Assembly (NCBI RefSeq): GCF_011393335.1
Contig: NZ_CP049865.1
Location: forward strand, 310,001 to 374,000
DNA: 64,000 nt
Source of the DNA: Propioniciclava coleopterorum
GTDB lineage: Bacteria > Actinomycetota > Actinomycetes > Propionibacteriales > Propionibacteriaceae
Reading direction: 5' to 3'
Shown: positions 25,876 to 64,000 of the stretch, one piece after another
How positions within the stretch are numbered: the first letter of the stretch is position 1
How the letters are laid out: every line of letters starts with the position of its first letter
Translations under genes and position numbers: made by a program
The notes under the pieces: model-generated
Databases searched by the model: none
Seen by the model: only the letters and a program-made list of their open reading frames with translations
Told to the model about the DNA's origin: nothing

Positions 25876-25952
25876 GGTGGGTATAGCTCAGCTGGTAGAG
25901 CACCTGGTTGTGGTCCAGGATGTCGCGGGTTCGAGTCCCGTTACTCACCCCA
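25876..25952 (+). tRNA. tRNA-His (anticodon GTG), ICE attachment site at its 3' end
   Basis: The acceptor GTGGGTA pairs with TACTCAC, the anticodon loop is TTGTGGT, and the T-arm includes GGGTTCGAGTCCC. An extra G at position -1 faces a C discriminator, the hallmark of tRNA-His, and CCA is encoded. The stop codon of the ICE recombinase lies inside the acceptor stem (25945-25947), so the left ICE junction is within or at the 3' end of this gene. No second copy of the 3' end was seen rightward in the window. Confidence 0.95.
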
Positions 25953-43754: not shown

Positions 43755-44159
43755 TCAACTCATCGAGACCCCGGAGCGGGACACCTGCGAGGCAGGTGCG
43801 GTGCTGCACCCGAACGCCGAGATCGGCGGCAACCGCCGGGCGCGATCCCCGAGACGACGAACACCTGCACCGAGCGGGGTGCGGGTGCGGCGTGCCAGCT
43901 CGGCCTGGAAGTCGAGACCCCGCCCGGCCGCGTGCGCCGAGTGCCGGGCGATCAAGTCAGTGGGGCGCACCCACTCCACGCCTCGCCCACGAACGAGCGC
44001 GTGCCGCTTGTCGTCGCGGGCGACCGGCGCGGCCCGCACCGCCTCCGGCGTACTCATCACTTCGACCGACTCGGGGCGCTCCCGCGGCTCCTCGGGCACC
44101 AGCCGTGCGGGATCGGGCCTCGCGGAATCGTTGCGCTGGGGGTTCTCAGTGGTGTTCAT
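43755..44159 (-). CDS. Hypothetical Arg/Pro-rich ICE protein
   Basis: The 134-residue protein is rich in Arg, Ala and Pro, without membrane helices. It contains DDKRHALVRGRGVEWVRPTDL and RRTRTPLGAGVRRLGDR. The ATG overlaps the stop of the DUF2637 gene by 4 bp, which supports it. Its basic character would suit nucleic-acid binding. The C-terminal 40 residues have a composition close to random high-GC reading, so the annotation is only moderately sure. Confidence 0.5.
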   Translation of the reverse strand: MNTTENPQRNDSARPDPARLVPEEPRERPESVEVMSTPEAVRAAPVARDDKRHALVRGRGVEWVRPTDLIARHSAHAAGRGLDFQAELARRTRTPLGAGVRRLGDRARRLPPISAFGCSTAPASQVSRSGVSMS

Positions 44160-44839
44160 GGGATCGTCTCCTCCCGCTCGTCGGCGGTGTCAGTGGTGTC
44201 AGTGAGGTGCGCGACGGCGAACCAGCGGCCCACGGTCGAGGGATGCACCCCGAGTTCGCGGGCGATCCGCTTGTTCGACCAGCCCGCCTCGCGCAGCTCC
44301 CACCCCAGCGCCCGCCGATCCGCCACACCCTCATCGCGACGGTTGGCCTCCATCTCGCCAGGCGGCAGCGCAGGCATCGAATCCGCGGTGTTCGTCGAGA
44401 ACGAGTCGGCAGTGGCGGGTTCCGCATGGGGGTCGGTGGTGCGGGTGAGAATCACGGTCAGGTGCGTGATGGCCAGCAGCACGACGGGCGGCACCGCGGC
44501 GACCGAGGCCGCGAGCATCCTTGGCACGTCGGCGTCCGCGGCGACGACAGCATGAATGGCGTTCGCCGTCACCGACACGAGCGCGCCGCCTACCAGCAGC
44601 GCCCACGGATACCAGGCCGAGCGCTGCCCGGCGAGCGCGACGACGGCAACCGTGGCGACGACGATGATGCCGTCCACGATCAGCGGCCACGCCCACGCCT
44701 GCCCAGCCCCGATCCCGGAGCGAGCAGCCAGATCGGCCAACGACGTGAACGACAGCCAGAACGCCCCGGCGGCGATGAACACCGTCCCCGCGACCGCCGT
44801 CATCGCGGCCCAGCGCCGCCCTCCCGATTCACGCCTCAC
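44156..44839 (-). CDS. DUF2637 membrane protein with C-terminal helix-turn-helix, copy 1
   Basis: The 227-residue protein has four helices in the first 125 residues (FIAAGAFWLSFTSLADLAAR, PLIVDGIIVVATVAVVALAG, LLVGGALVSVTANAIHAVVA, AVPPVVLLAITHLTVIL), the SpdA-like DUF2637 layout of plasmid and ICE spread proteins. The C-terminus has LREAGWSNKRIARELGVHPS, a helix-turn-helix. A GTG overlapping the primase stop is the chosen start. The family is linked to spread of conjugative elements inside the mycelium or recipient. A closely similar copy lies at 61856-62785. Confidence 0.85.
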   Translation of the reverse strand: MRRESGGRRWAAMTAVAGTVFIAAGAFWLSFTSLADLAARSGIGAGQAWAWPLIVDGIIVVATVAVVALAGQRSAWYPWALLVGGALVSVTANAIHAVVAADADVPRMLAASVAAVPPVVLLAITHLTVILTRTTDPHAEPATADSFSTNTADSMPALPPGEMEANRRDEGVADRRALGWELREAGWSNKRIARELGVHPSTVGRWFAVAHLTDTTDTADEREETIP

Positions 44840-45768
44840 AGCCCAGCCCTCCCCAAGGCTGCGGACGGTGGGCTCGCCGAGCGACCGAACCACCGACCCG
44901 CGCTCTGGCTCCGGCCGCCGGGCGTCACTTCGGATGCGGGCTGGGTGGCTCGGTAGGCGGAGCGCACGGTCGTGGTGATCTCGCGATCACCCAGACCCGC
45001 CGACTGTGCCGCAGCACCCAGCGCATCGAGCGCCTCGGCGGGCGAGACGCCGTTCTCTGCGAGGCGGCAGGCAGCCCAGAACAGGCCTCGGTTCCGCTCG
45101 CCCTCACCCCGCCCAGCGACCCACGTCGCCAACCGCTCAGCATCCTCATCCATCGAGCCGCTGCTGGCGCGTAGTGGAGCGACGGGGCGCGGGTCGAGGA
45201 AGTCCCGCAGACGGGCCGCGTCCACATGACCGACCGAGTGCGCGGCGATGTCCGCGACCTCGTAGCGGCACACACTGCCGTCGATGATTCGCCGGGAGGG
45301 AGGAGCGATGATGTAGCCGCCGTCGCCCCGGAAGTCGACGCCCGCGGTGGCTGCCTGCCACGACCGCTGCTCGCGGCCCGGGGTCGCCGGGAAGTACACG
45401 TGCGCGCCTCCGGTGGGTGTGCGCACGAGCAGACCCGCGCCATCGACGAGCCCCGCGTCGGTGGCGCGCTGGAACGCCGCGCGGCCGTCGTGGGGGCCGT
45501 GGACATCGACATCGACGACGACAACGCCGGATGGAGCGCCGGTCGGGATGCCGATGTTCGCGTTCGGTGTGCGCGACCACCACGCGGCAACCTGTTCCGG
45601 GTCGCTGCTCGCATCGAGGAACCCACGGCGGGTCAGCGGACGCTTCCCCTCGACGACGCACGGAAACACGGGCACGCCAGCCGCCGCGAGGCTCCGCGCC
45701 GCGAGCCCCAGGCTCGGTGAACGATCCACGCGAATGAGCGCCGCCAGGACATCGAATGCTTCGGGCAT
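44836..45768 (-). CDS. Bifunctional primase-polymerase, copy 1
   Basis: The 310-residue protein has the prim-pol domain found in actinobacterial ICEs and phages: VPVFPCVVEGKRPLTRRGFL, the metal-binding VVVDVDVHGP (DxD), and FRGDGGYIIAPPS. The C-terminal part (GRGEGERNRGLFWAACRLAE) is the helical PriCT-like region. It can prime and copy the element in the recipient. GGAGG precedes the ATG, which overlaps the ArdC stop. A second copy lies at 62785-63711. Confidence 0.9.
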   Translation of the reverse strand: MPEAFDVLAALIRVDRSPSLGLAARSLAAAGVPVFPCVVEGKRPLTRRGFLDASSDPEQVAAWWSRTPNANIGIPTGAPSGVVVVDVDVHGPHDGRAAFQRATDAGLVDGAGLLVRTPTGGAHVYFPATPGREQRSWQAATAGVDFRGDGGYIIAPPSRRIIDGSVCRYEVADIAAHSVGHVDAARLRDFLDPRPVAPLRASSGSMDEDAERLATWVAGRGEGERNRGLFWAACRLAENGVSPAEALDALGAAAQSAGLGDREITTTVRSAYRATQPASEVTPGGRSQSAGRWFGRSASPPSAALGRAGL

Positions 45769-50388: not shown

Positions 50389-50649
50389 GTGGCTGAGCCG
50401 TGGCTGTCCGCAGACGACATCGCCGCCCACCTCGGGGTCACCAAAGACACCGTCTACACCTGGATCGCCGAGAAGGCCATGCCCGCCCACAAGGTCGGAC
50501 GCCTCTGGAAGTTCCAAGCCAGCGAGATAGACGACTGGGTGCGCGCGGGTGCGGCGGCCAGTGACCAAGAGCTCCACGTAGCCCATCCCGGTGTCGGTGG
50601 ACGCTCCTACGCTCATGACAACGACGAGCACCGGGAGGGGGGAAGATGA
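50389..50649 (+). CDS. Small helix-turn-helix (HTH_17/excisionase-type) protein
   Basis: The 86-residue protein has the MerR/excisionase-like winged helix: LSADDIAAHLGVTKDTVYTW, then IAEKAMPAHKVGRLWKF and ASEIDDWVR. The GTG follows GAGGGAGGACC. The stop overlaps the first methylase gene (ATGA), so it is part of the restriction-like operon and probably regulates it. Many restriction operons begin with such a controller. A 135-bp gap upstream holds its promoter. Confidence 0.82.
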   Translation: MAEPWLSADDIAAHLGVTKDTVYTWIAEKAMPAHKVGRLWKFQASEIDDWVRAGAAASDQELHVAHPGVGGRSYAHDNDEHREGGR

Positions 50650-51290
50650 ACCTGAAAGACGCCCAGCGCTTGGTGAAGTCCAAGCAACGCGTTGCGGACC
50701 ACGGCGAGGTGTTCACGCCGGCGTGGATGGTCGAGGACATGCTCGACCTCGTTAAGCACGAGTCTGAGCGGATCGACTCCCGCGTACTCGAACCCGCCTG
50801 CGGCTCGGGCAACTTCCTCATCCCCGTCCTGGCTCGCAAGCTCGCCACGGTCGAGCTTCGGCACGGCAAGAGCGAGTTCGAGAAGCGCCACTACGCATTG
50901 TTCGCGCTCATGTGCACCTACGGTATCGAACTTCTCGCAGACAACGCCGAAGAGTGCCGTCACAATCTCGCCGAGGTGTTCAACACGTTCTTGGGTATCG
51001 GCAACGATGACCAGTGGGCACGAGCGGCCCGCGCGGTTCTCACCGTGAACATCGTCCAGGGCGATGCCTTGACCATGACCGTGCCAAGCGGCCAGCCGAT
51101 CACCTTTCCTGAGTGGGGCTACCTCGGCAAAGGCAAGTTCCAGAGGCGCGACTTTCGCTACGACGACCTCACTCAGCGCGCCTCGTACGAGGGAACCCTA
51201 TTCGGCGAGCTCGATGACGAGGACCTGTTCGTCCCCGCGCAGACTTACCCGACGATGACCGTCATTCAGATCGCCGAGGCCGCCGCGTGA
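50646..51290 (+). CDS. N6-adenine methylase-like protein (small subunit)
   Basis: The 214-residue protein opens with ADHGEVFTPAWMVEDMLDLV, the usual start of type I/Eco57I-like methylases. SAM motif I (VLEPACGSGNFLIPVLARKL) and an acidic strand GIELLADNAEECRHNL follow. No NPPY catalytic motif is present, so alone it should bind SAM but not methylate. It overlaps the NPPY-bearing next gene by 4 bp. The two probably form a heteromer, or this protein recognises and opens DNA. Confidence 0.8.
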   Translation: MNLKDAQRLVKSKQRVADHGEVFTPAWMVEDMLDLVKHESERIDSRVLEPACGSGNFLIPVLARKLATVELRHGKSEFEKRHYALFALMCTYGIELLADNAEECRHNLAEVFNTFLGIGNDDQWARAARAVLTVNIVQGDALTMTVPSGQPITFPEWGYLGKGKFQRRDFRYDDLTQRASYEGTLFGELDDEDLFVPAQTYPTMTVIQIAEAAA

Positions 51291-52954
51291 CCCTTGCACC
51301 TTTGACTCTCCGAGGGCACAACCCGGATGTCTTGACCTGCATCGCGAACCTCTCCAACGATGAGGTCTTCACCCCGCCGGAGTTCGCGAACCAGATGCTC
51401 GACACGCTTGCCGCCGCGTGGGCAGACGCCAACGACGGCGCCGACATCTGGGCCAACCCCGATGTCACGTTCCTCGATCCGTTCACCAAGTCTGGTGTGT
51501 TCCTCCGCGAGATCGTGCGCCGACTCACCGACGGCCTGATCCTGACGATCCCCGACCTCACCGAACGCGTCGATCACATCCTCACCCACCAAGTGTTCGG
51601 CATCGGGATCACCCAGCTCACGGCGCTGCTCGCGCGCCGGAGCGTCTACTGCTCGAAGTTCGCCAACGGCCCGCACTCGATCGCTAGGTCATTCACGACC
51701 GAGGACGGCAACATCTGGTTCGAGCGCACCGAGCACACCTGGGGCGGCGGGAAGCGGGAGTTCCGTGCTGATCCACTGACCAGCGAGGAAGTCGCCGTCT
51801 ATACCAACCGCAAGTGCATCTACTGCGGCGCAGGCGAGGATGACTACGCCCGTGGTGACGACCTTGAGACTCACGCCTACGCCTTCATCCACACCGACGA
51901 CATCAAAGCCCGCATCGCGGAGCTGTTCGGAGACACCATGCAGTTCGACGTCATCATCGGCAACCCGCCCTACCAGCTCAGCGACGGCGGTCATGGGACC
52001 AGCGCCGCCCCGATCTATCAACTCTTCGTAGAGCAGGCCAAGAAACTCGACCCGCGTTTCTTGTCCATGATCGTTCCCTCGCGTTGGTTTGCGGGAGGAA
52101 AAGGCCTCGATGAGTTCAGGGAGTCAATGCTGACCGACAGCCGCGTGCGGGCAATCAACGATTACCTGAGCGCTTCGGACGTGTTCCCAGGCGTCGGACT
52201 AAAGGGCGGGGTGTGCTACTTCCTCTGGGATCGCGACCACCCCGGACTCTGCGAGGTCACCACCCACTTCAAGGATTGGCCGACGACCACGGCCACTCGC
52301 TCTTTGCTCGAACCAGGCGCGGATGTCTTCATCCGGTTCAACGAGGCTCTGTCAATCTTGCGCAAGGTGATTGCCGTCGAGACCGGGCAGGAGCACTCGC
52401 TGGCACTGCCGGAGAGCAAGCGCTTCGAAAGGCTGGTCAGCTCCCGTAAGCCCTTTGGATTTGAGACCACGTTCAAGGGCAGAGCGTCAAAGGCGCCTGG
52501 CGACGTGCTCATCTACCAGAACGGTGGGACTGGGTATGTGGACCGAGCATCGATCCCTTCGGGCGCTCACCTCATCGATGGCTGGAAGGTTTACGTTGGC
52601 CGCGCCGCGCCCGGCACGGGAAATAAGGACACCTATCCCCATCGGATCATCAGCACTCCCTTCCTTGGCGAGAGCGGGAGCATCTCCTCCGAGACGTACC
52701 TCTGCATCGGAACCTTCGATACACGAGGAGAGGCGGAGAGCGCGCTGTCGTACCTCCGCTGCCGTCTGACGCGCTTTCTCATCCTCCTTCACAAGCCCTC
52801 GCAAGACACCACGCGGAAGGTCTATGCCTTCGTTCCGACCCAGGATTGGACGCGAGACTGGAACGATCATGATCTTTACGAGAAGTACGGACTCTCGGAA
52901 GACGAGATCGACTTCGTCGAGCGGATCGTTCGCCCGATGGAGGCGGACGAGTGA
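51287..52954 (+). CDS. Eco57I-like N6-adenine methylase with NPPY motif
   Basis: The 555-residue protein starts with NDEVFTPPEFANQMLDTL. A motif I-like segment with an altered Gly loop (VTFLDPFTKSGVFLREI) and VFGIGITQLTALL follow. The catalytic motif is DVIIGNPPYQLSDGGHG near residue 225, then SMIVPSRWFAGGKGL. A CxxC pair (RKCIYCGAGEDD) lies between motif I and NPPY. The C-terminal 200 residues are likely the target-recognition region. Start and stop overlap both neighbours (GTGA), implying coupled synthesis of all subunits. Confidence 0.85.
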   Translation: MTLAPLTLRGHNPDVLTCIANLSNDEVFTPPEFANQMLDTLAAAWADANDGADIWANPDVTFLDPFTKSGVFLREIVRRLTDGLILTIPDLTERVDHILTHQVFGIGITQLTALLARRSVYCSKFANGPHSIARSFTTEDGNIWFERTEHTWGGGKREFRADPLTSEEVAVYTNRKCIYCGAGEDDYARGDDLETHAYAFIHTDDIKARIAELFGDTMQFDVIIGNPPYQLSDGGHGTSAAPIYQLFVEQAKKLDPRFLSMIVPSRWFAGGKGLDEFRESMLTDSRVRAINDYLSASDVFPGVGLKGGVCYFLWDRDHPGLCEVTTHFKDWPTTTATRSLLEPGADVFIRFNEALSILRKVIAVETGQEHSLALPESKRFERLVSSRKPFGFETTFKGRASKAPGDVLIYQNGGTGYVDRASIPSGAHLIDGWKVYVGRAAPGTGNKDTYPHRIISTPFLGESGSISSETYLCIGTFDTRGEAESALSYLRCRLTRFLILLHKPSQDTTRKVYAFVPTQDWTRDWNDHDLYEKYGLSEDEIDFVERIVRPMEADE

Positions 52955-55521
52955 AGCGGGAGATTGACGAACTCCTCCCCAAGAAGCCCGAGGCGCGACT
53001 GCGAATCTACGCATGGTCGCCGAACGATCCACCAGTCGGCTACGCGGGGCTTCTCAAGGTGGGCCAGACGACGAAGGCGGATGTGAACGCGCGCATCCGC
53101 GAGTCTCAGGGGCAGATGCAGCAGGCATACACGCTGCACGTTGATGAGCTCGCCGAACGAGGCGACGGGACGGTGTTTCGCGACTCAGATGTGCGCCAAC
53201 GGCTGATCGACAAGGGCTTCGAGAACCCGATCTTCGGCTCAGCGCGAGAGTGGATGTGGTGCACCCCAGACGATGTGCGCACGGCGATCACTGAGCTTCG
53301 CACAGGCGTGAAGCTCAGTGGAACCCATCATGAGAAGTTTCCGATGCGCCCGGAGCAAGCCAGCGCCGTGGACAAGGCCGAGGGCTACTACAAGTCCATC
53401 TGGGCCGAGGACTCTCACGCGGTGCCACGGTTCCTGTGGAACGCCAAGATGCGCTTCGGGAAGACCTTCGCCTCCTACCAACTCGCGAAGCGGCTCGGCG
53501 CCAAACGCATCCTCGTGGTCACCTTCAAGCCCGCAGTGGAGGACGCCTGGCAGACCGACCTGGAGTCTCACGCCGACTTCGACGGCTGGCAGTACCTCTC
53601 CTCGGCCACCGGGGGCAGCCCAGATGAGGCGGACAAGACTCGGCCACTGGTCTACTTCGGATCGTTCCAGGACCTGCTCGGGCGAGATCGGAAGACCGGC
53701 CTCATCAAGGCGAAGAACGAGTGGGTCCACACCACCAACTGGGACCTCGTCATCTTCGATGAATACCACTTCGGTGCGTGGCGAGAGTCCGCCAAGGAGC
53801 TGTTCGAGGGCGAGGACGAGAAAGTCAAGCAGAAGGAACTGGCCGCGGAGTACAACGACGGCCTCGTGGCCTTCGACGAGGAGCTTGACGAACTCGGCAA
53901 CGACGAGGACGACTTCCTGCCGATCACCACCCGCGCCTACCTGTACCTGTCGGGCACGCCATTCAAGGCGCTGGCAACCGGTGAGTTCATCGAGGAGCAA
54001 ATCTTCAACTGGACCTACACCGATGAGCAGCGCGCCAAGGCCGAGTACGCCGTCGCGCAACCGGACGCCTGGAACCCGTACGGGTCGCTCCCGGAGATGC
54101 GTCTGTTCACGTACCAGATGCCTGACGAGTTGATTGCCGTTGCGAATCAGGGAGAGTTCGACGAGTTCGACCTCAACGAGTTCTTCGAGGCAAAGGGCAT
54201 CGGTAAGGACGCCGAGTTCACCCACAAGACCGACGTGCAGAAGTGGCTCGATCTCGTCCGCGGCGCTCACCTTCCCACCCAGGTCGACGCGATGCGGATG
54301 GGCACCCGCCCGCCATTCCCGTACTCCGATGTCCGACTCCTGCCGTACCTTCAGCACTCGTTCTGGTTCCTGCCCAACGTTGCTGCCTGCGAGGCAATGT
54401 CGAACCTGCTCGCGGAGAAGCAGAACGTGTTCTGGCACGACTACAAGGTCCTCGTCGTCGCGGGTCCCGGCGCGGGCATCGGGCTGGATGCTCTCCCGCC
54501 AGTGCGGGCGGCGATCGGCGACGGCCACGACACCAAGACGATCACCCTGTCGTGCGGCAAGCTCACCACGGGCGTCACCGTCAAGCAGTGGTCCTCGATC
54601 CTGATGTTGCGCAACCTCAACTCACCCGAGACCTACTTTCAGGCAGCGTTCCGCGTACAGTCACCGTGGTCGATCAAGAATCCCGACGGAGACAACCCGA
54701 GCGCCGAAGCAGTCCTCAAGCCTGTGTGCTTCGTGTTCGACTTCGCGCCCACTCGCGCGCTGCGTCAGATCGCCGACTACGGCGCCGGTCTCTCGCCGGA
54801 GACGCCGAACCCTGAGCAAGCCGTCGAGGAGCTCGTGAAGTTCCTGCCCGTGTTGGCGTACGACGGGTCGAATATGACCCAGGTCGATGCCGGCGGCATC
54901 CTCGACATCGCCATGTCGGGCACCTCCGCGACCCTCCTGGCCCGCAAGTGGGAGTCCGCAATCCTCGTCAACGTCGACAACGACACCCTGCGCAAGATCA
55001 TGAACAACCCCGACGCCCTCAACGCCGTCATGAACATCGAAGGCTTCCGCGCGCTCGGCAGCGACATTTTCGAGACCGTCGTGAACAAGAGCGACGCCGT
55101 GAAGAAGGCGAAGAAGGAGAAGGGCGACGACATTACTCCGGCGGAGAAGAAGGAGTTGACGGAGGAGGAGAAGGAGTACAAGTCCAAGCGGACGCAGATT
55201 CAGGAGAAGCTGGTCAAGTTCGCCACCCGCGTCCCTGCGTTCATGTACCTGACCGACTTCCGTGAGAACACTCTTACCGACGTCATCACCAAGCTCGAAC
55301 CCGGCTTGTTCCGCACCGTCACCGGACTGACCGTCGAGGACTTCCACCTCCTCGTGAATCTCGGCGTCTTTAACGCCACCCATATGAACCAGGCCGTCTT
55401 CGCCTTCCGCCGCTACGAGGACTCCTCCTTGTCCTACACCGGCATCGAGTCCCACAAGGGCCTGCGCCGCTACGGCCTCTACGACACCGTCGTCGCCGTC
55501 AACGACGAGACCGCAGTCTGA
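52951..55521 (+). CDS. GIY-YIG nuclease-SF2 helicase fusion, restriction subunit
   Basis: The 856-residue protein has an N-terminal GIY-YIG/T5orf172-like domain (residues 15-100: RIYAWSPNDPP, GLLKVGQTTKADVNARI, FGSAREWMWCTP). The helicase core has an altered Walker A NAKMRFGKTFASYQLAK, motif II DLVIFDEYHFGAWR and motif III LYLSGTPFKAL. The C-terminal motor half carries ITLSCGKLTTGVTVKQWSSI and QAAFRVQSPW. A Lys/Glu-rich coiled segment (KKAKKEKGDDITPAEKKELT) lies near residue 720. Helicase plus nuclease in one chain fits a translocating restriction enzyme that loops or pulls unmethylated DNA before cutting. Confidence 0.85.
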   Translation: MKREIDELLPKKPEARLRIYAWSPNDPPVGYAGLLKVGQTTKADVNARIRESQGQMQQAYTLHVDELAERGDGTVFRDSDVRQRLIDKGFENPIFGSAREWMWCTPDDVRTAITELRTGVKLSGTHHEKFPMRPEQASAVDKAEGYYKSIWAEDSHAVPRFLWNAKMRFGKTFASYQLAKRLGAKRILVVTFKPAVEDAWQTDLESHADFDGWQYLSSATGGSPDEADKTRPLVYFGSFQDLLGRDRKTGLIKAKNEWVHTTNWDLVIFDEYHFGAWRESAKELFEGEDEKVKQKELAAEYNDGLVAFDEELDELGNDEDDFLPITTRAYLYLSGTPFKALATGEFIEEQIFNWTYTDEQRAKAEYAVAQPDAWNPYGSLPEMRLFTYQMPDELIAVANQGEFDEFDLNEFFEAKGIGKDAEFTHKTDVQKWLDLVRGAHLPTQVDAMRMGTRPPFPYSDVRLLPYLQHSFWFLPNVAACEAMSNLLAEKQNVFWHDYKVLVVAGPGAGIGLDALPPVRAAIGDGHDTKTITLSCGKLTTGVTVKQWSSILMLRNLNSPETYFQAAFRVQSPWSIKNPDGDNPSAEAVLKPVCFVFDFAPTRALRQIADYGAGLSPETPNPEQAVEELVKFLPVLAYDGSNMTQVDAGGILDIAMSGTSATLLARKWESAILVNVDNDTLRKIMNNPDALNAVMNIEGFRALGSDIFETVVNKSDAVKKAKKEKGDDITPAEKKELTEEEKEYKSKRTQIQEKLVKFATRVPAFMYLTDFRENTLTDVITKLEPGLFRTVTGLTVEDFHLLVNLGVFNATHMNQAVFAFRRYEDSSLSYTGIESHKGLRRYGLYDTVVAVNDETAV

Positions 55522-55551: not shown

Positions 55552-55797
55552 ATGTACTTCTAGACCCCGTGCAGCATCGAGGAGATGCTCACCGCCATCC
55601 GCAAGCGCGAGTATCTGATGCCAGCTATCCATCGTGAATTTGTCTGAGGCACGGATACCCCGTCGGCTCCTTCCTGCTCTGGAACTTCAAGCCCGACCGC
55701 GCAGTCGTACACGTTCTACGAGTTCCTGACGAACTACCGCGAGCGCGACAACCTTACGCGGACAAGACAACGGTTCCCTCCGGGCAGCAAGACCCTT
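55552..55797 (+). pseudogene. DUF262 (GmrSD/McrBC-like) gene, decayed 5' fragment
   Basis: After an AGAGAG site and ATG, the reading MYF-stop-TPCSIEEMLTAIRKREY continues to AIHREFV-stop, matching the DUF262 start where REFVW is usual. After a short loss and a frame change comes GYPVGSFLLWNFKPD, then in another frame YTFYEFLTNYRERDN, then PYADKTTVPSGQQ. All are consecutive pieces of the DUF262 N-terminal nuclease/NTPase domain. Two stops and several shifts make it nonfunctional. It ends about 12 bp before merR. The 3' end of the same gene type appears at 61500-61848. Confidence 0.75.
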
Positions 55798-55808
55798 CAG
55801 CCGATTGG

Positions 55809-56198
55809 TCAGAGGTACCGGCAGATCGACTCGGGTGTGCAGACCTCCGGCGGCGTCTGTGCTGCGTTCGCGCGTAGGTCGGCGACGCTGGTACGGAGCA
55901 GGCGGAGCTGCTCGAGCTGCTCGTCGATCTCGACCAGTCGCCGGTCGAGAAGGTCTCGAACATGACCGCACGGCGACCCGCCCGCGTCACGTACTTCGAG
56001 GATCTCGGCGGTTTGCGCGAGAGTGAGCCCTGCTGCGCGGGCCCGGTCGATGAATTCGAGCCGCTGCACCGCCTCGTCGCCGTAGTTGCGGTACCCAGCC
56101 GGGGTGCGCTCCGGCGGTTGGAGCAGCCCGCGCTCCTCGTAGTACCGCAGCGTGGACGCCCTCGTCTTCGCCTTCCCCGCGAGTTCCCCGATCCGCAT
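55809..56198 (-). CDS. merR: Mercury-responsive MerR regulator
   Basis: The 129-residue protein has the MerR winged helix (MRIGELAGKAKTRASTLRYY and EERGLLQPPERTPAGYRNYG) and a dimerisation helix. Cysteines occur at the place of the metal site (GSPCGHVRDLL) and near the end (PPEVCTPESICRYL). Classical MerR binds Hg(II) with three Cys; here the first and the last pair could serve, with different spacing. The ATG at 56198 is chosen because the longer reading crosses the promoter. It is divergent from merA and shares its operator. Confidence 0.8.
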   Translation of the reverse strand: MRIGELAGKAKTRASTLRYYEERGLLQPPERTPAGYRNYGDEAVQRLEFIDRARAAGLTLAQTAEILEVRDAGGSPCGHVRDLLDRRLVEIDEQLEQLRLLRTSVADLRANAAQTPPEVCTPESICRYL

Positions 56199-56217
56199 CG
56201 TCACCTCGGCCACCGAC

Positions 56218-56249
56218 TTGACCTTCAAGCATACTTTAAGGTCCATTCT
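56218..56249 (+). promoter_or_regulatory. merA promoter with MerR-type operator
   Basis: TTGACC (56218-56223) and a -10 region CATTCT (56244-56249) are 20 bases apart, the overlong spacer typical of MerR-activated promoters. Between them is the near-perfect palindrome ACCTTCAAG-CATA-CTTTAAGGT, the expected MerR site. Confidence 0.75.
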
Positions 56250-56296
56250 TTCAGGAGTGGCCGCACGAGTGGCCGGTTCGAACTGGAGGAGGCATC

Positions 56297-57673
56297 GTGA
56301 CATGGCACACGGAGGTTGATCTCGTGGTGATCGGGACGGGCGGGGCGGCGATGTCCGCAGCGATCCACGCGCGCCTCGAGGGGGCCAGCGTGGTCGCCAT
56401 CGAATCGGGAACCCTCGGCGGTACCTGCGTGAACGTGGGTTGTGTGCCGTCCAAGACGCTTCTCGCGGCCGCGCACACCCGGCACTCCGCCCTCACGAAC
56501 CGGTTCTCAGGCGTCCCCAGCTCTGCTGGGATGGTCGATCTCAGCGCGCTCATCGAGCAGAAGGATGATCTGGTTGGGATGCTCCGCCAGACCAAGTACG
56601 CCGACATCGCCGCTGCCTACGGGTTTGACATCCTCCCGGGCACTGCAACGTTCACAGACGCTGGAACCCTGCTCGTGGATGGACGACCGGTGCGCGCGAA
56701 GTCGTATCTCGTCGCCACCGGCGCCGAGCCGCACGTGCCGGCAATCCCTGGGCTTGAGCAGGTTGATTACCTCACGTCGACCACAGCGATGGAACTGACG
56801 GAACTGCCCGCGTCGCTCGTGGTGATCGGCGGTGGCTTCGTCGGCCTGGAACAGGCGCAGCTGTTCGCCCGGCTCGGAGTAGAGGTCACCGTCATCGGTC
56901 GGCTCGCCCCGCACGCCGAACCGGAACTGTCATCCGAGCTCCGCAAGGCCTTCCTGGCCGAGGGGATCAGCGTCATCGGCGACCGCGCAGCCACGATCAC
57001 CCAGCACGAGGGCCTGGTCCAGGTGACGACCCGCAACGGGAAGGACGCGACCGGTGAACGTGTCCTCGTTGCCACCGGTCGCACCCCGCGCACCGAAGGG
57101 CTCAACCTTCCTGCTGCGGGTATCGCGACCGACGAGCGCGGCTTCGTCATCGTAGACGAGCAGCAGCGGACCACGAACCCGGCTGTGTTCGCCGCCGGTG
57201 ACGTCACTGACGTGCCCCAGTACGTGTACGTCGCCGCGAGGACTGGGAAGATCGCCGCGCACAACGCCCTGGGTCACGACGAGCGAGTCGACTACACCGG
57301 GTTGCCGTCTGTGCTGTTCACCTCACCCCAACTGGCCTCCGCCGGGATCACCGAAGCCAGCGCCATCGCCGCCGGATACCGGTGCGCCTGCCGATTCCTA
57401 CGACTTTCCGACGTGCCCAGGGCCATCGCCAACCACGACACACGCGGCGGCATCAAGGTCGTCGCCGACGCCGACACCGGCAAAGTCCTCGGTATCCACG
57501 CCCTCGCCGACACCGCTGGGGAGATGATGCTCGCCGCAACCTACGCCATCACCGCCGGATTCACCGTCACCCAACTCGCCGACACCTGGGCCCCCTACCT
57601 CACCATGGCCGAAGGCATCCGCCTCACCGCGAACCTCTTCCGCAACGAACTCCCCACCTCCTGCTGCGCCTGA
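56297..57673 (+). CDS. merA: Mercuric reductase
   Basis: The 458-residue flavoprotein has FAD motif VVIGTGGAAMSAAIHARLEG, the redox-active pair GTCVNVGCVPSKTL, NAD(P)H site VVIGGGFVGLEQAQLFARLG and FAD motif VFAAGDVTDVPQYVYVAA. It ends NELPTSCCA, the C-terminal Cys-Cys that delivers Hg(II) to the active site and separates MerA from dihydrolipoamide dehydrogenase. It lacks the N-terminal NmerA metal-binding domain. GGAGGAGG precedes the GTG. It reduces Hg(II) to volatile Hg(0) in the cytoplasm. No merT or merP transporter gene is beside it. Confidence 0.93.
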   Translation: MTWHTEVDLVVIGTGGAAMSAAIHARLEGASVVAIESGTLGGTCVNVGCVPSKTLLAAAHTRHSALTNRFSGVPSSAGMVDLSALIEQKDDLVGMLRQTKYADIAAAYGFDILPGTATFTDAGTLLVDGRPVRAKSYLVATGAEPHVPAIPGLEQVDYLTSTTAMELTELPASLVVIGGGFVGLEQAQLFARLGVEVTVIGRLAPHAEPELSSELRKAFLAEGISVIGDRAATITQHEGLVQVTTRNGKDATGERVLVATGRTPRTEGLNLPAAGIATDERGFVIVDEQQRTTNPAVFAAGDVTDVPQYVYVAARTGKIAAHNALGHDERVDYTGLPSVLFTSPQLASAGITEASAIAAGYRCACRFLRLSDVPRAIANHDTRGGIKVVADADTGKVLGIHALADTAGEMMLAATYAITAGFTVTQLADTWAPYLTMAEGIRLTANLFRNELPTSCCA

Positions 57674-57895
57674 CACAAGAGCCGGGCCCAGCGATGTGGT
57701 GATCCAAGTGATATCCGCGACGCCTTCAACACCGGCACCGACCGCGTGATCGACGCCTACGCGGTCAGCGTGGGCTCAGTTGAGGCAGCGGCGCCGAGCA
57801 CGTCGTCTGGGCCGCTCACACGCGCAGCGCACCGGGACACTCAGCCGCCAGGTAGCAACCACAGCACGCTGCCATCTACGCAGTCGGCTACGAGT

Positions 57896-58498
57896 TCAGA
57901 GGCCGAAGGCACCACCACTGACGAGGATGAAGATGCCCAGGCCGATGAGCACGATCGGGAACAGGATGTGTTCCCAGCGTTCCAGGAGTTCGGCGATCGG
58001 TCGGCGGGTGGCGACGAACTTGCCCAGGCCGACGAGGGCGGCGACCAGGGCGAGGAACACGATGCAGTACGCCACCACGGCCGCTGGGCCCACGCTGAGG
58101 AAGACCGGGACGTAGACGCCGATGTTGTCCCCGCCGTTGGCGAAGGTCACCCCGGCCACCGTCCACACCCCAACCTTCTTGCCCTCGACCTTTGCCTCAT
58201 CGTCATCGTCGGCACCGCGGTTGCGCCAGGCTTGCCACGCAGCCCAAAGTCCCAACCCCAGCGGAATGAGTCCGAAGTAGGGGATGACCTCTGGCGGCAG
58301 GAACGCTCCCGCCCCGAGCGTCACCAGCACGGAAGCGCCCAGGATGCCAGCGAACCCGAGGTACTGTCCGACCAGGATTCGGGCGGTGGTCCCGCGCTGG
58401 CCCACGCCTCGGGCGAAGAACAGTGAGAGCACGATGATGTCATCGATGTTCGTGGCGATGAATAGGCCGATCGCCTGCAGGACGGAGGACAGGATCAT
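57896..58498 (-). CDS. cadD: Cadmium resistance transporter, CadD family
   Basis: The 200-residue membrane protein has about five or six helices with family motifs GLFIATNIDDIIVLSLFFA near the start and FANGGDNIGVYVPVFLS in the second half, plus an acidic loop DDDDEAKVEGKK between. CadD proteins give cadmium resistance, by efflux or sequestration. It is the last gene of the minus-strand metal operon, 76 bp after lspA. A 222-bp stretch separates it from merA; I see no gene there. Confidence 0.88.
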   Translation of the reverse strand: MILSSVLQAIGLFIATNIDDIIVLSLFFARGVGQRGTTARILVGQYLGFAGILGASVLVTLGAGAFLPPEVIPYFGLIPLGLGLWAAWQAWRNRGADDDDEAKVEGKKVGVWTVAGVTFANGGDNIGVYVPVFLSVGPAAVVAYCIVFLALVAALVGLGKFVATRRPIAELLERWEHILFPIVLIGLGIFILVSGGAFGL

Positions 58499-58574
58499 GC
58501 GCCCACCGCCGCGTTACAGCCGCCTGGCGACCCAGCGGTTCCGGCAGCCGCGTGCCGTTGATACTCTGCGACCA

Positions 58575-59144
58575 TCATTGTCCGTTCCTGGTGTGGTGTG
58601 GGCCTCGGAGGTAAAGCAGGACGCCCAGGGCGACGCCGAAACCGAGGATGACGTCGGCAAGGTTGCCGATGAACAGGTTGCCGTAGGCGAGGAAGTCGGT
58701 GACGTGACCGCGGCCAAACTCGGGAGGGGCGAACAGCCGGTCCAGCAGGTTGCCGACCGCGCCTCCCCACACCAGGCCGATCGCGACCGCCCACCCGACG
58801 GTGCGGGCGCGGGTTGCGGCGACGAGTAGAGCGACAGAGGCCGCCGCGGCGATGACGGTGAGCAGCCAGGTTGCGCCGGCTCCGAGGGACATCACGGTGC
58901 CGGGGTTGAACGCGAGCTGCAAGCCGAGCCAGTCTCCCAAGAGCGGAATACGGTCATCCTCGCTGAGCTGAGCGAGGGCGAGTGCCTTGCTGCCTTGATC
59001 GATCAGCACCGCGCCAGCGGCGACGGCGCACGCGAGCAGGAACCAGCGGAGCCGGACGCGCGCCGCCGCCGGGCCGGCAGAACTCGCTTCCACGGCATCC
59101 GCTTTTCCCGGGGAGGGAGCGGAGCCGTCAAGGGGATCGGTCAT
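58575..59144 (-). CDS. lspA: Lipoprotein signal peptidase LspA paralogue
   Basis: The 189-residue protein has four helices and the aspartyl peptidase motifs of LspA: VLIDQGSK, LAFNPGTVMSLG (usually NxGaaF), GGAVGNLLDRL with the first catalytic Asp, and VTDFLAYGNLFIGNLADVIL with the second. LspA cleaves prolipoprotein signals. A copy inside a metal-resistance operon is known from other Gram-positive cassettes, but its value there is unclear. It overlaps the ATPase gene by 4 bp. The housekeeping lspA should be elsewhere. Confidence 0.88.
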   Translation of the reverse strand: MTDPLDGSAPSPGKADAVEASSAGPAAARVRLRWFLLACAVAAGAVLIDQGSKALALAQLSEDDRIPLLGDWLGLQLAFNPGTVMSLGAGATWLLTVIAAAASVALLVAATRARTVGWAVAIGLVWGGAVGNLLDRLFAPPEFGRGHVTDFLAYGNLFIGNLADVILGFGVALGVLLYLRGPHHTRNGQ

Positions 59145-61045
59145 GCCTTCGTGCGCCGCGCCGCGCGGAGCCCGTTGAGGATGACGACGACTTCAGCGAC
59201 CTCGTGTACAAGCACGACCGCGGCGAGCCCGAGGACTCCGGTAATCGCCAGCGGCAGCAGCACCACGATGATCGCGATCGACAACACGACGTTCTGGTTG
59301 ATTATGTTGCGGCCGCGGCGGGCGTGGGCGAGGGCCTGTGGGATGAGGCGCAGGTCGTGGCCGGTGAACGCGACGTCGGCCGACTCGATCGCAGCATCGG
59401 CGCCCTTGGCTCCCATCGCGATCCCCACATCCGCGGCCGCCAGCGCGGGAGCGTCGTTGATGCCGTCCCCGATCATGGCAGTGGGCTGAGACTTCGACAA
59501 CTCCGCGACGGCGGTGGCCTTGTCCTCGGGGCGCAGCTCGGCGCGCACGTCCATGATGCCGGCCTGGCCGGCCAGCGCTGCGGCGGTGCGGGCGTTGTCG
59601 CCGGTGAGCATCGTCACCCCGATCCCGCGGCGGTTCAGCGTGGCGATGACCTCGGGAACCTCTGGGCGCAGTTCGTCACGCACCCCGATCGCGCCAGCCG
59701 GCCGGTCGCCGCGGTGGACGATGACGACGGTCATCCCCTCGGATTCCATCACCTGCACCTGGTCGGCCAGCGTGCCGGCGTCCAGCCAGCGGGGGCTACC
59801 GACGGCGAGACGGGCACTACCGAGCGTGCCGGTGATGCCGCGCCCGGCGGTCTCGGTGACGTCGTGCGCGGTCGGGGCGTCGGGGACGGCCTTCGTGATC
59901 GCGGCGGCCAGCGGGTGCGTGCTGTGACCTTCCAGGCTCGCCGCCCACGCCAGCACCTCATTCTCGGTCGCGCCGGTGGTGACGACGCGGGTCACCGTGG
60001 GCTCGTTGCGGGTCAGCGTGCCGGTCTTGTCGACGGCGACGTGGCGGATGCCGCCGAACCGCTCGAACGCGGCCCCGGACTTCACGACCACACCGAACTT
60101 CGACGCCGCGCCGATCGCGGAAACAACGGTGACCGGGACGGCGATCGCCAGCGCGCACGGCGAGGCTGCGACCAGCACCACCAGAGCGCGGGTGATCCAC
60201 AGCTCAGGGTCGCCGCTCAACAGCGACCCAAGCACGCCGACCAGCACGGCGAGGATCATCACGCCGGGCACCAGCGGGCGGGCGATCCGGTCGGCCAGGC
60301 GGGCACGGTCGCCCTTCTCGGCCTGCGCCTGCTCGACCAGCTCCACGATGGTGGTGAGCGAGTTGTCGGTGCCGGCGGCGGTGGCCTCGACCTCGAGCAC
60401 GCCGGTGGTGTTGATCGACCCGGCCGAGACGTCGGTGCCCGGTTCGACCTCGACCGGGATCGATTCACCCGTGATCGCGGACGTGTCCAGGCTGCTCCGC
60501 CCGGCCCGCACGGTGCCGTCGGTGGCGATCCGTTCGCCCGGCCGGACCACCAGGACATCCCCGACGCGCAGCTCCTTCGCCTCGACCTCGGCGGTGGCGT
60601 CGCCGCGCTTGACGAGTGCGGTTTCGGGCACGAGCTTCAACAGCGCCCGCAACCCTGCGCGGGCGCGGTCCATCGCCTTGTCCTCCAGCGCCTCCGCGAT
60701 GGAGTACAGGAATGCCAGCGCGGCGGCCTCCTCGACGTAGCCGAGGATCACCGCGCCGGTCGCGCTGATCGTCATCAGCAGCCCGATGCCGAACTTGCCC
60801 TTGGTGAACAGCTTGCGCAGCGCGCCCGGCACGAACGTGTACGCGCCCAGCAGCAGGCCGATCCAGAACAGCACCAGGCCCGCGGTCTCCGCGCCGGTCC
60901 ACTCGCACACCAGGCCGGCGGCGAACGCGACGCCGGAGGCGATCGGGATCAGAACGCTCGGGCTCCGATACCACGGCCGGTCATCGTCATCATCGTGGTC
61001 GTCGAGGTCGACATGCTCGACCTGCGAACCCGTGACCGCGCTCAC
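59141..61045 (-). CDS. Heavy-metal P1B-type ATPase (CtpG/CadA-like)
   Basis: The 634-residue pump has an N-terminal His/Asp-rich metal patch (VEHVDLDDHDDDDDRPW) instead of a CxxC domain. The helix-4 metal motif is ASPCALAIAV (SPC, not CPC). The phosphorylation site is VDKTGTLTRNEP, the nucleotide-domain HP motif is STHPLAAAI and the hinge is MIGDGINDAPAL. The SPC form is typical of P1B-4 pumps for Co, Zn, Cd or Fe, although the final helix differs from the usual HEGGT. Its GTG overlaps the cmtR stop. A CmtR-ATPase pair is known in mycobacteria as cmtR-ctpG. Confidence 0.9.
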   Translation of the reverse strand: MSAVTGSQVEHVDLDDHDDDDDRPWYRSPSVLIPIASGVAFAAGLVCEWTGAETAGLVLFWIGLLLGAYTFVPGALRKLFTKGKFGIGLLMTISATGAVILGYVEEAAALAFLYSIAEALEDKAMDRARAGLRALLKLVPETALVKRGDATAEVEAKELRVGDVLVVRPGERIATDGTVRAGRSSLDTSAITGESIPVEVEPGTDVSAGSINTTGVLEVEATAAGTDNSLTTIVELVEQAQAEKGDRARLADRIARPLVPGVMILAVLVGVLGSLLSGDPELWITRALVVLVAASPCALAIAVPVTVVSAIGAASKFGVVVKSGAAFERFGGIRHVAVDKTGTLTRNEPTVTRVVTTGATENEVLAWAASLEGHSTHPLAAAITKAVPDAPTAHDVTETAGRGITGTLGSARLAVGSPRWLDAGTLADQVQVMESEGMTVVIVHRGDRPAGAIGVRDELRPEVPEVIATLNRRGIGVTMLTGDNARTAAALAGQAGIMDVRAELRPEDKATAVAELSKSQPTAMIGDGINDAPALAAADVGIAMGAKGADAAIESADVAFTGHDLRLIPQALAHARRGRNIINQNVVLSIAIIVVLLPLAITGVLGLAAVVLVHEVAEVVVILNGLRAARRTKA

Positions 61046-61401
61046 GCCCGCACCTCCCCCGCCTGGCAACCCTCGACCCCGCAGTCCGGGTCCATGCACG
61101 GCACGCTCTCGTCAACCGCGAGCGTGACATCCACCAGCGCCGTCAGCGCGCGGGCCAGGTGCGGGTCTGCCACCTCGTAGCGGGTCTGTCGGCCCTCGGG
61201 CTCGGCCACCACGATCCCGCACCCGCGCAGGCATGTCAGATGGTTCGACACGTTCGAGCGCGACAACCCCAGCTCGCGGGACAGCACCGCCGGGTAGCTC
61301 GGCCCGGCCAGCAGGGTCAGCAGAATGCGGGAGCGGGTCGGGTCGGCCATAGCTCGGCCGAGCCGGTTCATCACGTCGAGTCGATCGGAAATAGTCAGCA
61401 T
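61042..61401 (-). CDS. cmtR: CmtR-like ArsR-family metal sensor
   Basis: The 119-residue protein has the ArsR winged helix (PAVLSRELGLSRSNVSNHLT) followed by CLRGCGIV, the two Cys that bind Cd/Pb in CmtR, and a C-terminal CMDPDCGVEGC for the third ligand. It should leave its operator when Cd or Pb binds. The ATG at 61401 is preferred because the alternative GTG at 61416 lies in the operator palindrome. No ribosome-binding site precedes it, so the message may be leaderless. It heads the ATPase-lspA-cadD operon. Confidence 0.9.
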   Translation of the reverse strand: MLTISDRLDVMNRLGRAMADPTRSRILLTLLAGPSYPAVLSRELGLSRSNVSNHLTCLRGCGIVVAEPEGRQTRYEVADPHLARALTALVDVTLAVDESVPCMDPDCGVEGCQAGEVRA

Positions 61402-61414
61402 ACGATGACTATAC

Positions 61415-61431
61415 ACTGTACGACGTACAGT
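61415..61431. promoter_or_regulatory. Operator of the cmtR metal operon
   Basis: ACTGTAC-GAC-GTACAGT is a perfect 7-3-7 palindrome ending 14 bases before the cmtR ATG. Its place and symmetry fit an ArsR-family operator overlapping the promoter. Confidence 0.7.
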
Positions 61432-61499: not shown

Positions 61500-61848
61500 T
61501 CGAAGATCCGTCGTGGAGAATATGTCCCGTTCCTCCGTGCCGGCGTCCCGCTCGATTAAGATCGACGACTACTTGGCCGCCGCATGCCTGCTGCCGAACC
61601 TTCAGTTGCTGAGTGGGGCCGCCAACATCGAGAAGCAGGATGGACTGCCTGCGGAGTGGATGGACACCGCCTTCCCGAGCGAGAACAAGCGAGCTACGTA
61701 CCTTGCCGAGGACGACCTCGACGGCCTTCCGCTCGACTTGGCCGACTTCACCTCGTTCTTCGAGCAGCGCAAGCAGCGAGTCCGGGTCCGCCTGCTCGCC
61801 GCTCTGGGAACGACACCGGGAGCACCGGAGGACGCCGCTCTCTCGTAG
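61500..61848 (+). pseudogene. DUF262/DUF1524 gene, 3' fragment
   Basis: The open reading to 61848 contains DDYLAAACLLPNLQLLSGA, then NIEKQDGLPAEWMDTAFPSE, then LPLDLADFTSFFEQRKQRV. This is the end of DUF262-DUF1524 proteins, after their HNH-like nuclease site. The segment before it (VENMSRSSV) may be a worn version of the usual His-rich DHxFPRS motif. Upstream domains are missing and are partly found at 55552-55797. It ends 7 bp from the convergent stop of the next gene. A short expressed protein from an internal ATG cannot be excluded. Confidence 0.65.
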
Positions 61849-61855
61849 CCCACGT

Positions 61856-62785
61856 TCACGCGGCGAGCAGTGACAGCGCGGACACAGCCTGGAGGGGTAG
61901 CAATCCGTTGCCGAGGGCGGTGATCTGTTGATTCTGCGTCAGGCCGCCGCTATCGGTGACCCATCCAGTCGGCAGGCCCATGAGCCATTCGACGAATGCC
62001 GGTGCTGGGCGGGGGCCGTCGGCGTCGTCAGGGGAGGGCTGGCGCTGACGCGTCTCCTCCCGCTCGCCGGCGGCGTCATCATTGGTGTCGGGAAGGTGCG
62101 CGGCGGCGAACCATCTCCCCACAGTTGCCGGATGCACCTGCACCTCGCGGGCAATCCGCTTGTTCGACCAGCCCGCGGCCCGCAACGCCGCAGCACGAGC
62201 CCGGCGATCAGAACGACCAGGGGTTTCATCCGAGGCTAAGGACAACTCCCGCTCATCGGCCAGAGGTTCAGAGGCAACGGACAACAACGACTTTGAGTGG
62301 ACAACACCCTGCGGTCCGGCATACACCTCGGACAGCATCTCCGGGATCTCGGACAACACCTCAGGCTGCCCCGGCAACTCCTGTGGGAAGGTGCGGGTGA
62401 GGATCACGGTGAGATGGGTGATCGCCAGCAGCACCACCGGCGGTACCGCGGCCACCGAGGCAGCCAGCAGGCCGGGCACATCGGCGTCCGCAGCGACCAC
62501 AGCGTGGATCGCATTCGCCGTCACCGACACCAGCGCCCCGCCGACCAGCAGCGACCAGGGATACCAGGCTGAGCGTTGCCCAGCCAGCGCCACCACCGCG
62601 ACCGTCGCCACCACGATGATCCCATCAACGATCAACGGCCACGCCCACGCCTGTCCCCGGTCGACCCCGGAACGCGCCGCCAGATCGGCGAGCGCGGTAA
62701 AGCTCAGCCAGAACGCACCCAACGCGATGAACACCGTCCCCACCACTGCGGTGCGCCCCGCCCACTGCCTACCGGTCGTCTTCAT
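61856..62785 (-). CDS. DUF2637 membrane protein fused to a C5-methyltransferase tail, copy 2
   Basis: The 309-residue protein has the same four helices as copy 1 (PLIVDGIIVVATVAVVALAG and LLVGGALVSVTANAIHAVVA are identical) and the same C-terminal helix-turn-helix (LRAAGWSNKRIAREVQVHPA). It continues for about 55 residues with FVEWLMGLPTGWVTD and TQNQQITALGNGLLPLQA, which is the end of phage/ICE DNA cytosine-5 methyltransferases. Catalytic methylase motifs are absent, so the tail is a remnant, probably from an in-frame deletion joining two genes. The ATG overlaps the primase stop. Confidence 0.82.
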   Translation of the reverse strand: MKTTGRQWAGRTAVVGTVFIALGAFWLSFTALADLAARSGVDRGQAWAWPLIVDGIIVVATVAVVALAGQRSAWYPWSLLVGGALVSVTANAIHAVVAADADVPGLLAASVAAVPPVVLLAITHLTVILTRTFPQELPGQPEVLSEIPEMLSEVYAGPQGVVHSKSLLSVASEPLADERELSLASDETPGRSDRRARAAALRAAGWSNKRIAREVQVHPATVGRWFAAAHLPDTNDDAAGEREETRQRQPSPDDADGPRPAPAFVEWLMGLPTGWVTDSGGLTQNQQITALGNGLLPLQAVSALSLLAA

Positions 62786-63711
62786 CACAGCCTCCGCCCA
62801 CCCATGCCTGGGTTCGGGGCGTTGGCTCGCTCGAACCAGGCGCCGCCACCGAGGCCGGGGCCACCGGCTTCGGGCGCGGGGTGCGCGATCCGGTAGGCGG
62901 AGCGCACCGTGGTGGCGATCTCGCGTTCGCCCAGCCCGGCCTGGCTGGCGGCTGCGCTGAGGACATCGAGCGCATCCGAGGCAGAGACATCACTCTCGGC
63001 CAAGCGGCACGCGGCCCAGAACAGCCCCCGGTTCCGCTCACCCTCACCACGCCCAGCGACCCAGAACGCCAGCCGGTTCATATCCGCCAACCGCACCAAC
63101 CCACGACCCTGCCGCACGACCGGTCCCGGACGTGGATCGAGGAAGTCCCGCAGCCGACGCGAGTCCAGCGCAGCGGCAGGCTGGTCGCCGACATTGACGA
63201 CCTCGTAGCGGATCGGGACACCGCCGACGATGCGAACCGAGGGCGACACGATGATGTACCCGCCATCACCCCGGGAGTCCACCCCAGCGCGAGCGGCCTG
63301 CCATGACCGCTGCTCGACCCCCGCCGTCGCAGCGAAGTAGGCGTGCAGGCCACCCGTCGGGGTCTCCACCAGCAGACCCCAGCCATCGACGAGCCCGGCT
63401 CGCTCGGCGCGGGCGAACGCTTGCCGCCCATCAACCGGGCCATGCACGTCCACATCCACCACGACCATCCCCGACACCGCGCCAGTCGGGACACCCAGGT
63501 TCGCCTCCGGAGTCCGCGACCACCACGCCTCGACGCGACCGATGTCGGTGGTGGCATCGTGGAACCCCCGCGTCGTGAGCGGACGCTTCCCGCGCGGCTG
63601 GCAGGGGAACACCGGCACCCCCACCTGCGCGAGATGCCGGGCCGACGCCGCCAGCGTCGAAGCACCACTGGCACGCAACAACGCCCTGGTGAAGTCGGCA
63701 CGCGCAGGCAT
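62785..63711 (-). CDS. Bifunctional primase-polymerase, copy 2
   Basis: The 308-residue protein is colinear with copy 1 at 44836-45768: VPVFPCQPRGKRPLTTRGFH, VVVDVDVHGPVDGRQAF, SRGDGGYIIVSPSVR and GRGEGERNRGLFWAACRLAE. It is clearly similar but diverged, so the two came from different elements and not from a fresh duplication. It has its own complete catalytic residues and should be active. It lies between ArdC copy 2 and the DUF2637 fusion, with 1-4 bp overlaps on both sides. Confidence 0.9.
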   Translation of the reverse strand: MPARADFTRALLRASGASTLAASARHLAQVGVPVFPCQPRGKRPLTTRGFHDATTDIGRVEAWWSRTPEANLGVPTGAVSGMVVVDVDVHGPVDGRQAFARAERAGLVDGWGLLVETPTGGLHAYFAATAGVEQRSWQAARAGVDSRGDGGYIIVSPSVRIVGGVPIRYEVVNVGDQPAAALDSRRLRDFLDPRPGPVVRQGRGLVRLADMNRLAFWVAGRGEGERNRGLFWAACRLAESDVSASDALDVLSAAASQAGLGEREIATTVRSAYRIAHPAPEAGGPGLGGGAWFERANAPNPGMGGRRL

Positions 63712-64000
63712 CACAACCCCCGACCCGCCACCACCGGCACCCTCGCCGCCGGCCGATGCTCCGACGGCGGCGGCACATGCAGCGCCTTCGGCTCCGCAGT
63801 GGGAACATCACGCGCAAGACCAGGCGGCGTGCCATCGGCGACCTGGAACGTGTCCAGCTGGTCGAGGATGCCCAGCGCCGTCCTCCGCACCCGCTCACCG
63901 GTCGCCTTGACGACCTCCGCCGGTTCAGCGTCCTTGACCGACGACGCCCACCCCGCCACATACGGAATCGTGTAACCACTGGTATCCAAACCGTGCGCAG
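63711..64000 (-). CDS. ArdC-like anti-restriction protein, copy 2 (C-terminal part; 5' end beyond window)
   Basis: The reading is open to the window edge and aligns with the end of ArdC copy 1: DTSGYTIPYVAGWASSVKD against DTTGYTIPYVSTWAARVDG, then RVRRTALGILDQLDTFQV. The HExxH peptidase motif and the ssDNA-binding domain would lie outside. It overlaps the primase start, as in copy 1. This shows that a second element of the same family continues to the right. Confidence 0.88.
   Translation of the reverse strand, partial: AHGLDTSGYTIPYVAGWASSVKDAEPAEVVKATGERVRRTALGILDQLDTFQVADGTPPGLARDVPTAEPKALHVPPPSEHRPAARVPVVAGRGL

Follow-up and report, generated by a model that had tools for sequence, protein, structure and literature searches.

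The gene at 61856-62788 on the reverse strand of the window, a stretch of 64,000 nucleotides from Propioniciclava coleopterorum (G000:C1:310001-374000), encodes a chimera of 310 amino acid residues in which a DUF2637 and helix-turn-helix (HTH) protein runs in frame into the tail of a methyltransferase. It very probably arose by illegitimate recombination between two related integrative conjugative elements (ICEs), here termed A and B, and was then spread. Element A would have had the gene order methylase, cargo, primase and DUF2637, and element B, with the same layout, a methylase of its own with a metal-resistance island after it. The DUF2637 gene of A would have been broken at its last codons and joined to the 3' part of the methylase gene of B with 2 bp shared, and the joined element would then have spread through several genera of one family.

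The domains of the chimera were assigned with Pfam, where DUF2637 (PF10935) was found at residues 13-126 with 45.9 bits, exceeding the gathering cut-off of 22.8, and HTH_23 at residues 192-228 with 30.6 bits (cut-off 24.6). The last ~60 residues derive from the C-terminus of a cytosine-5 methyltransferase: the last 64 match the DNA methyltransferase phrog_1008 (E 1.8e-17), and in BLASTP the tail was 63-95% identical to five intact methylases that are read in one frame (G129, L012, L013, L065 and L066). The DNA_methylase profile (PF00145) gave no match in the chimeric ORF at E<=1, and the catalytic motifs (PCQ, ENV) as well as the SAM-binding motif I were absent from the ORF as read. This agrees with the first-pass annotation, which had described the tail as the end of a cytosine-5 methyltransferase lacking the catalytic motifs. 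It had also noted that the other DUF2637 and HTH gene of the window, its copy 1 (44156-44893, reverse strand), has no such tail; this gene, the intact one of parent B, indeed ends with EREETIP and the stop codon. The match to phrog_1008 and the identity to the methylase C-termini place the motif IX-X region in the tail. The DUF2637 frame crosses the join, runs for a few residues as a short linker in the +1 frame of the methylase gene and then enters this C-terminal region. Some matches in the family genomes spanned residues ~182-310, and a resemblance of the HTH part itself to methylases was considered. It was rejected for the loci compared: in BLASTP with residues 181-247, no match to three intact methylases or to the tail-bearing ORFs of seven more loci was better than E 0.5; in an eighth locus, L067 (G056), the pattern found no tail ORF. 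Residues 7-133 of the DUF2637 part match phrog_733, labelled 'excisionase', with E 1.9e-42.

The switch between the two parents was placed to the base by DNA comparison, at 62051/62052, where the two matches overlap by 2 bp (CG); the position falls inside the interval of 61856-62060 that had been marked in the first-pass annotation. The part from element A (62052-62788) was compared with unfused loci. The same-genus G004 DNA matches the window from 65749 to 62051 (3.7 kb, 96.7%) and stops there. Over the ~1.95 kb up to 62051 the identity is 98.4% to the G004 locus and 99.0% to G143, and both matches stop at 62051. The DUF2637 gene of G004 encodes 248 residues, is 98% identical over residues 1-246, ends with EREETTP and the stop codon and is overlapped by the next gene. 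Within the 245 codons of the DUF2637-HTH part, 9 codons differ from G004 and 8 from G143; the nonsynonymous ones among them (5 and 4, respectively) all lie between residues 187 and 241.

The part from element B (61856-62051) begins a long match to the methylase locus of G134, a genome of the family. This locus shows no difference from the window in the 197 nt that adjoin the junction and matches it from 62052 to 52553, a 9.5-kb block of 97.7% that holds the methylase C-terminus and the metal-resistance island. A second B-like element, in G091, aligns collinearly with 37967-62052 of the window; the only interruptions are the metal island and a gap of 0.3 kb. When the carrier G021 was aligned to unfused G004, a single block of 28,028 bp with 97.9% identity was obtained that ends at the junction. 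Beyond the junction G021 follows G134 in successive blocks of 97.7%, 96.3% and 91.4%, and G134 has 13.7 kb extra between the first two. With a divergence of a few per cent, G004 and G134 are relatives of the parents and not the parents themselves. The two sides of the junction come from two distinguishable related elements, as expected of a hybrid (composite) ICE. The relaxase side of the window genome is only ~84% identical to G004, so it was exchanged later or differs between lineages. In the window genome, G169 and G022 this side, where compared, differs from G004 by ~16%, and so later exchanges would have occurred there.

A different origin had been proposed in the first-pass annotation, namely an in-frame deletion inside one element that joined DUF2637 to a methylase gene downstream of it. 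Its view of the junction as a recombination scar held, and the tail is truly methylase-derived with the reading frame kept, but the methylase is not downstream. The G004 methylase (64586-65698) is located 22 kb upstream of DUF2637 (88102-88848) on the same strand, and that of G134 is 30 kb upstream, also on the same strand. The unfused relatives that were expected to have the methylase directly after DUF2637 show the reverse order, and the gene after DUF2637 was a 134- to 142-aa ORF in all five loci read. In the window, the 134-aa gene (43755-44159, reverse strand) overlaps the end of the intact DUF2637 gene, and the counterpart of parent A does not come after the chimeric gene. With the methylase 22-30 kb upstream of DUF2637 in both unfused relatives, the fusion is not accounted for by a deletion within a single such element, and this origin is contradicted by the alignment of G021 to G004 and then to G134. 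We regard a one-element origin as unlikely to a high degree.

The gene order of the joined element has parts of both parents. The primase-polymerase gene of parent A (62785-63714, reverse strand), 62% identical in amino acids to the Prim-Pol of copy 1, is located upstream of the chimeric gene. The window genome, G169 and G021 share one gene order: relaxase and methylase A come first, the chimeric gene and the metal island follow, and then the intact primase and DUF2637 genes of B, ParB and the conjugation genes. The right end is marked by a serine integrase (25945-27624, reverse strand; Pfam Resolvase/Recombinase) beside the tRNA-His at 25877-25952. Both sides of the junction are linked in nine genomes of six genera, and four of them (the window genome, G169, G021 and G029) have the same tRNA-His-end DNA at the right end. 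When a repeat of the tRNA-His end was sought for the left end, only a 12-bp match near G000 395479 was obtained, which is not convincing. In G134, an integrase ORF lies ~5 kb left of the relaxase ORF and may belong to a second element.

The recombination between A and B would most simply have been a deletion across a tandem A-B array at the tRNA-His site, since the loss of the right part of A and the left part of B in one event is expected of such a deletion. Where it was followed on both sides, the fused element has a relaxase and a methylase on the A side together with the conjugation genes and the serine integrase of B. The tandem state is deduced from this geometry, and no clear A-B array was seen in the genomes examined. 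Some genomes have more than one DUF2637 locus, so co-residence of elements does occur.

The fusion was found in 9 of 198 family genomes, belonging to six genera, with all 310 residues at 100% identity; any match to the chimeric protein was found in at least 60 of the 198. The carriers include Propionibacterium sp. AS27yjCOA_218 (MAG), Tessaracoccus bendigoensis DSM 12906, Propionibacteriaceae UBA6238 (MAG) and Granulicoccus phenolivorans DSM 17626. In the other eight carriers the 933-nt ORF has no difference from the window (six genomes) or a single base (two), which amounts to 2 substitutions over nine copies, both synonymous. Around the junction, 5-24 mismatches and 2-6 gap columns per ~6.2 kb were counted against the window. 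The junction 30-mer was present in 8 of 391 order-level genomes, each of them a member of the family; the ninth carrier, G139, was not seen among these 391. A full match in 394 class-level genomes was obtained for the window's own genome only. A misassembly could be suspected, because related repeated elements in a genome can be assembled wrongly, but the same junction occurs in nine genomes, several of them single-contig, and in different contig contexts, which leaves an artefact with a negligible probability. No literature on Propionibacteriaceae ICEs that involved Tessaracoccus was found in our search.

A wide occurrence of the fusion as a conserved architecture had been named in the first-pass annotation as the case that would speak against a scar. 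The nine genomes have one nearly identical DNA segment, and such an architecture was rejected: among the matches listed for the 198 family and 394 class-level genomes, none other than the nine spans the DUF2637 domain and the tail, no plasmid record covers 80% of the chimera query and the junction 30-mer is absent from the viral contigs. Judged by the near identity of the junction DNA, the fusion is one recent event that was carried by transfer.

The intact DUF2637 copy from B is also present in five of the nine carriers (the window genome, G169, G021, G170 and G094). In G064, G139 and G022 the contig ends before the place of this copy, and no such copy was found elsewhere among the matches listed. 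G029 has lost an 11-kb stretch with this copy, and the chimera is the only DUF2637 match among the matches listed. The deletion, at G029:C1:2085553, joins window-equivalent 53208 to 42195 and removes the primase, DUF2637, 134-aa and 321-aa genes of B and part of ParB.

The metal-resistance cargo at 55809-61416 consists of MerR-, mercuric-reductase-, CadD-, LspA-, CadA- and ArsR-like ORFs, named by reading. It is within the 9.5-kb block that matches G134 and is beside the methylase in that relative of parent B. G091 has an intact GmrSD gene in its place, encoding a 591-aa GmrSD_N protein (PADLOC HEC-05, E 1.4e-222) that converges on the methylase. The window keeps this GmrSD/DUF262-type gene only as two end pieces flanking the metal island, both on the forward strand and detected by tblastn with the intact G091 protein: a HEC-05-like 3' remnant at 61561-61842 converging on the methylase tail (residues 498-591, 88%) and a 5' remnant at 55552-55794 (residues 1-94, 54%). 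The earlier suggestion that a methylase next to a restriction-type locus was lost is supported by the adjoining genes in G091 and by these remnants. A defence-like operon was seen at 50389-55521, with a mad1-like protein (E 1.6e-11), methylase ORFs with type II and weak mad2 matches and an 856-aa protein with a type IIG match (E 4.9e-33).

The state of the methylase genes was analysed in the relatives and in the window genome. In G134, the frame with the catalytic part (329 aa) ends shortly before the tail, which is read with a 222-aa ORF in the +1 frame, whereas G154 (L065), a very close relative by eye, has one frame of 386 aa from the catalytic part to the tail. When the fusion arose, the donor methylase had therefore probably been disrupted already or existed in a split form. 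Four relatives, G091 (L055), G134 (L050), G016 (L052) and G068 (L053), have a tail-bearing ORF without the PCQ motif, their methylase being incomplete or out of frame, apparently at positions that differ between them. In the window genome an insertion of ~6.3 kb splits methylase A (window-equivalent 67271-74711), which is open in the carriers G169, G021, G170 and G022 and in G004. The insertion, at window-equivalent 67848-74170 (L016), contains three consecutive recombinase-like ORFs and one transposase-like ORF, all named by reading, and resembles the 'recombinase in trio' elements.

A search of the window genome with a 371-aa methylase gave N-terminal pieces of residues 1-184 (G000:C1:24265-24798) and 1-183 (384163-384711), a middle piece of residues 179-234 (19497-19655) and, besides the fusion, a C-terminal piece of residues 157-371. 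This query detected no piece extending from the N-terminus over the entire catalytic part, nor a partner subunit of the M.AquI type with motifs I-VIII, and no complete methylase of this kind was found in the window genome. A third element of the DUF2637/methylase kind was observed at G000:C1:13399-24798 (L002, L006). Its DUF2637 gene is in two frames, with the N-terminal part and the HTH part separated, and its methylase is in pieces (residues 1-184 and 179-234).

A long ORF in the +1 frame overlaps the methylase genes, for example at L013:1085-1585 inside the methylase at 661-1776; it was also observed in L012, L054, L065, L066 and L120 and in phage 1191A (L131:867-1982). In six methylases, of which two are identical in the overlap segment, fourfold third positions differed in 220 of 1223 comparisons in the overlap, versus 425 of 990 before it and 226 of 422 after it. 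The frame-0 identity is not higher in the overlap (0.72 versus 0.84 before and 0.71 after). The bacterial copies are about as similar to L013 in the +1 frame as in frame 0 (identity 0.67-0.72 versus 0.66-0.70), and for phage 1191A the values are 0.31 in the +1 frame and 0.47 in frame 0. Openness alone means little, since runs of 113-181 open codons occur in the +2 frame too. The substitution pattern points to what seems to be selection on both frames of the methylase genes. Some actinophages have related +1 ORFs that are annotated as methylase genes in their own right.

The DUF2637-HTH part of the chimera is complete but for its last codons and probably still works; from its domains the chimera should be a membrane protein with a DNA-binding end. 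The tail, without catalytic motifs, most likely does nothing, and no sign of its use was found. The 2 synonymous substitutions in nine ORF copies have no power to show that the tail is unused, and selection on it could still exist. Likewise, the G029 element has also lost other genes, so that the chimera as its only DUF2637 match does not show function.

A selected role of the tail as a motif IX-X domain that binds DNA, complements a tail-less methylase or interferes with one is nevertheless very improbable in our view. Motifs IX-X can sit on a separate subunit, as in M.AquI (PMC3404938), and the G134 tail belongs to a separate C-terminal ORF and not to the frame of the catalytic part. The window genome has two N-terminal methylase pieces without an attached tail, but these cover only residues 1-183 and 1-184 of 371. 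The fusion ORF is open in nine genomes, but as nearly identical DNA, which makes the openness uninformative, and no further spanning match was listed. Moreover, the carriers G169, G021, G170 and G022 keep their methylase open through its own tail. Still less credit is given to a working two-part protein, a membrane-anchored HTH whose motif IX-X tail would dock on tail-less methylases, such as the separate-frame allele of G134, and would bring methylation to the element's own DNA.

The break is exact to the base and relatives of both parents are at hand, which makes this a clean example of conjugative elements that were joined and then spread. The chimeric gene is an exact marker of a composite, metal-resistance-bearing element in nine genomes, and in-frame fusions in mobile elements should be checked for their DNA neighbours before a function is assigned. 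The fusion is ordinary in kind and unusually clean, and it will not surprise a specialist in conjugative elements. In the SXT/R391 hybrid ICEs (PMC4542580), tandem elements recombine, and as there, two related elements gave a chimera with modules of both. In contrast to these, the join here is at 2 bp of shared sequence and not in long homology, and the element is actinobacterial with a serine integrase and a deduced tandem state.

Like the DUF2637 (PF10935) HTH proteins of actinobacterial mobile elements, the chimera has the domain together with an HTH and a primase gene upstream, as in copy 1. Unlike these, it has a foreign tail and has lost the last codons and the overlapping downstream gene. 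The small subunit of M.AquI (PMC3404938) has motifs IX-X without motifs I-VIII, and the polypeptide of the chimera likewise has motifs IX-X and none of I-VIII. It differs from that subunit in being fused to an unrelated protein, in having none of the variable region that precedes motif IX apart from a short linker, and in lacking an adjacent partner gene.
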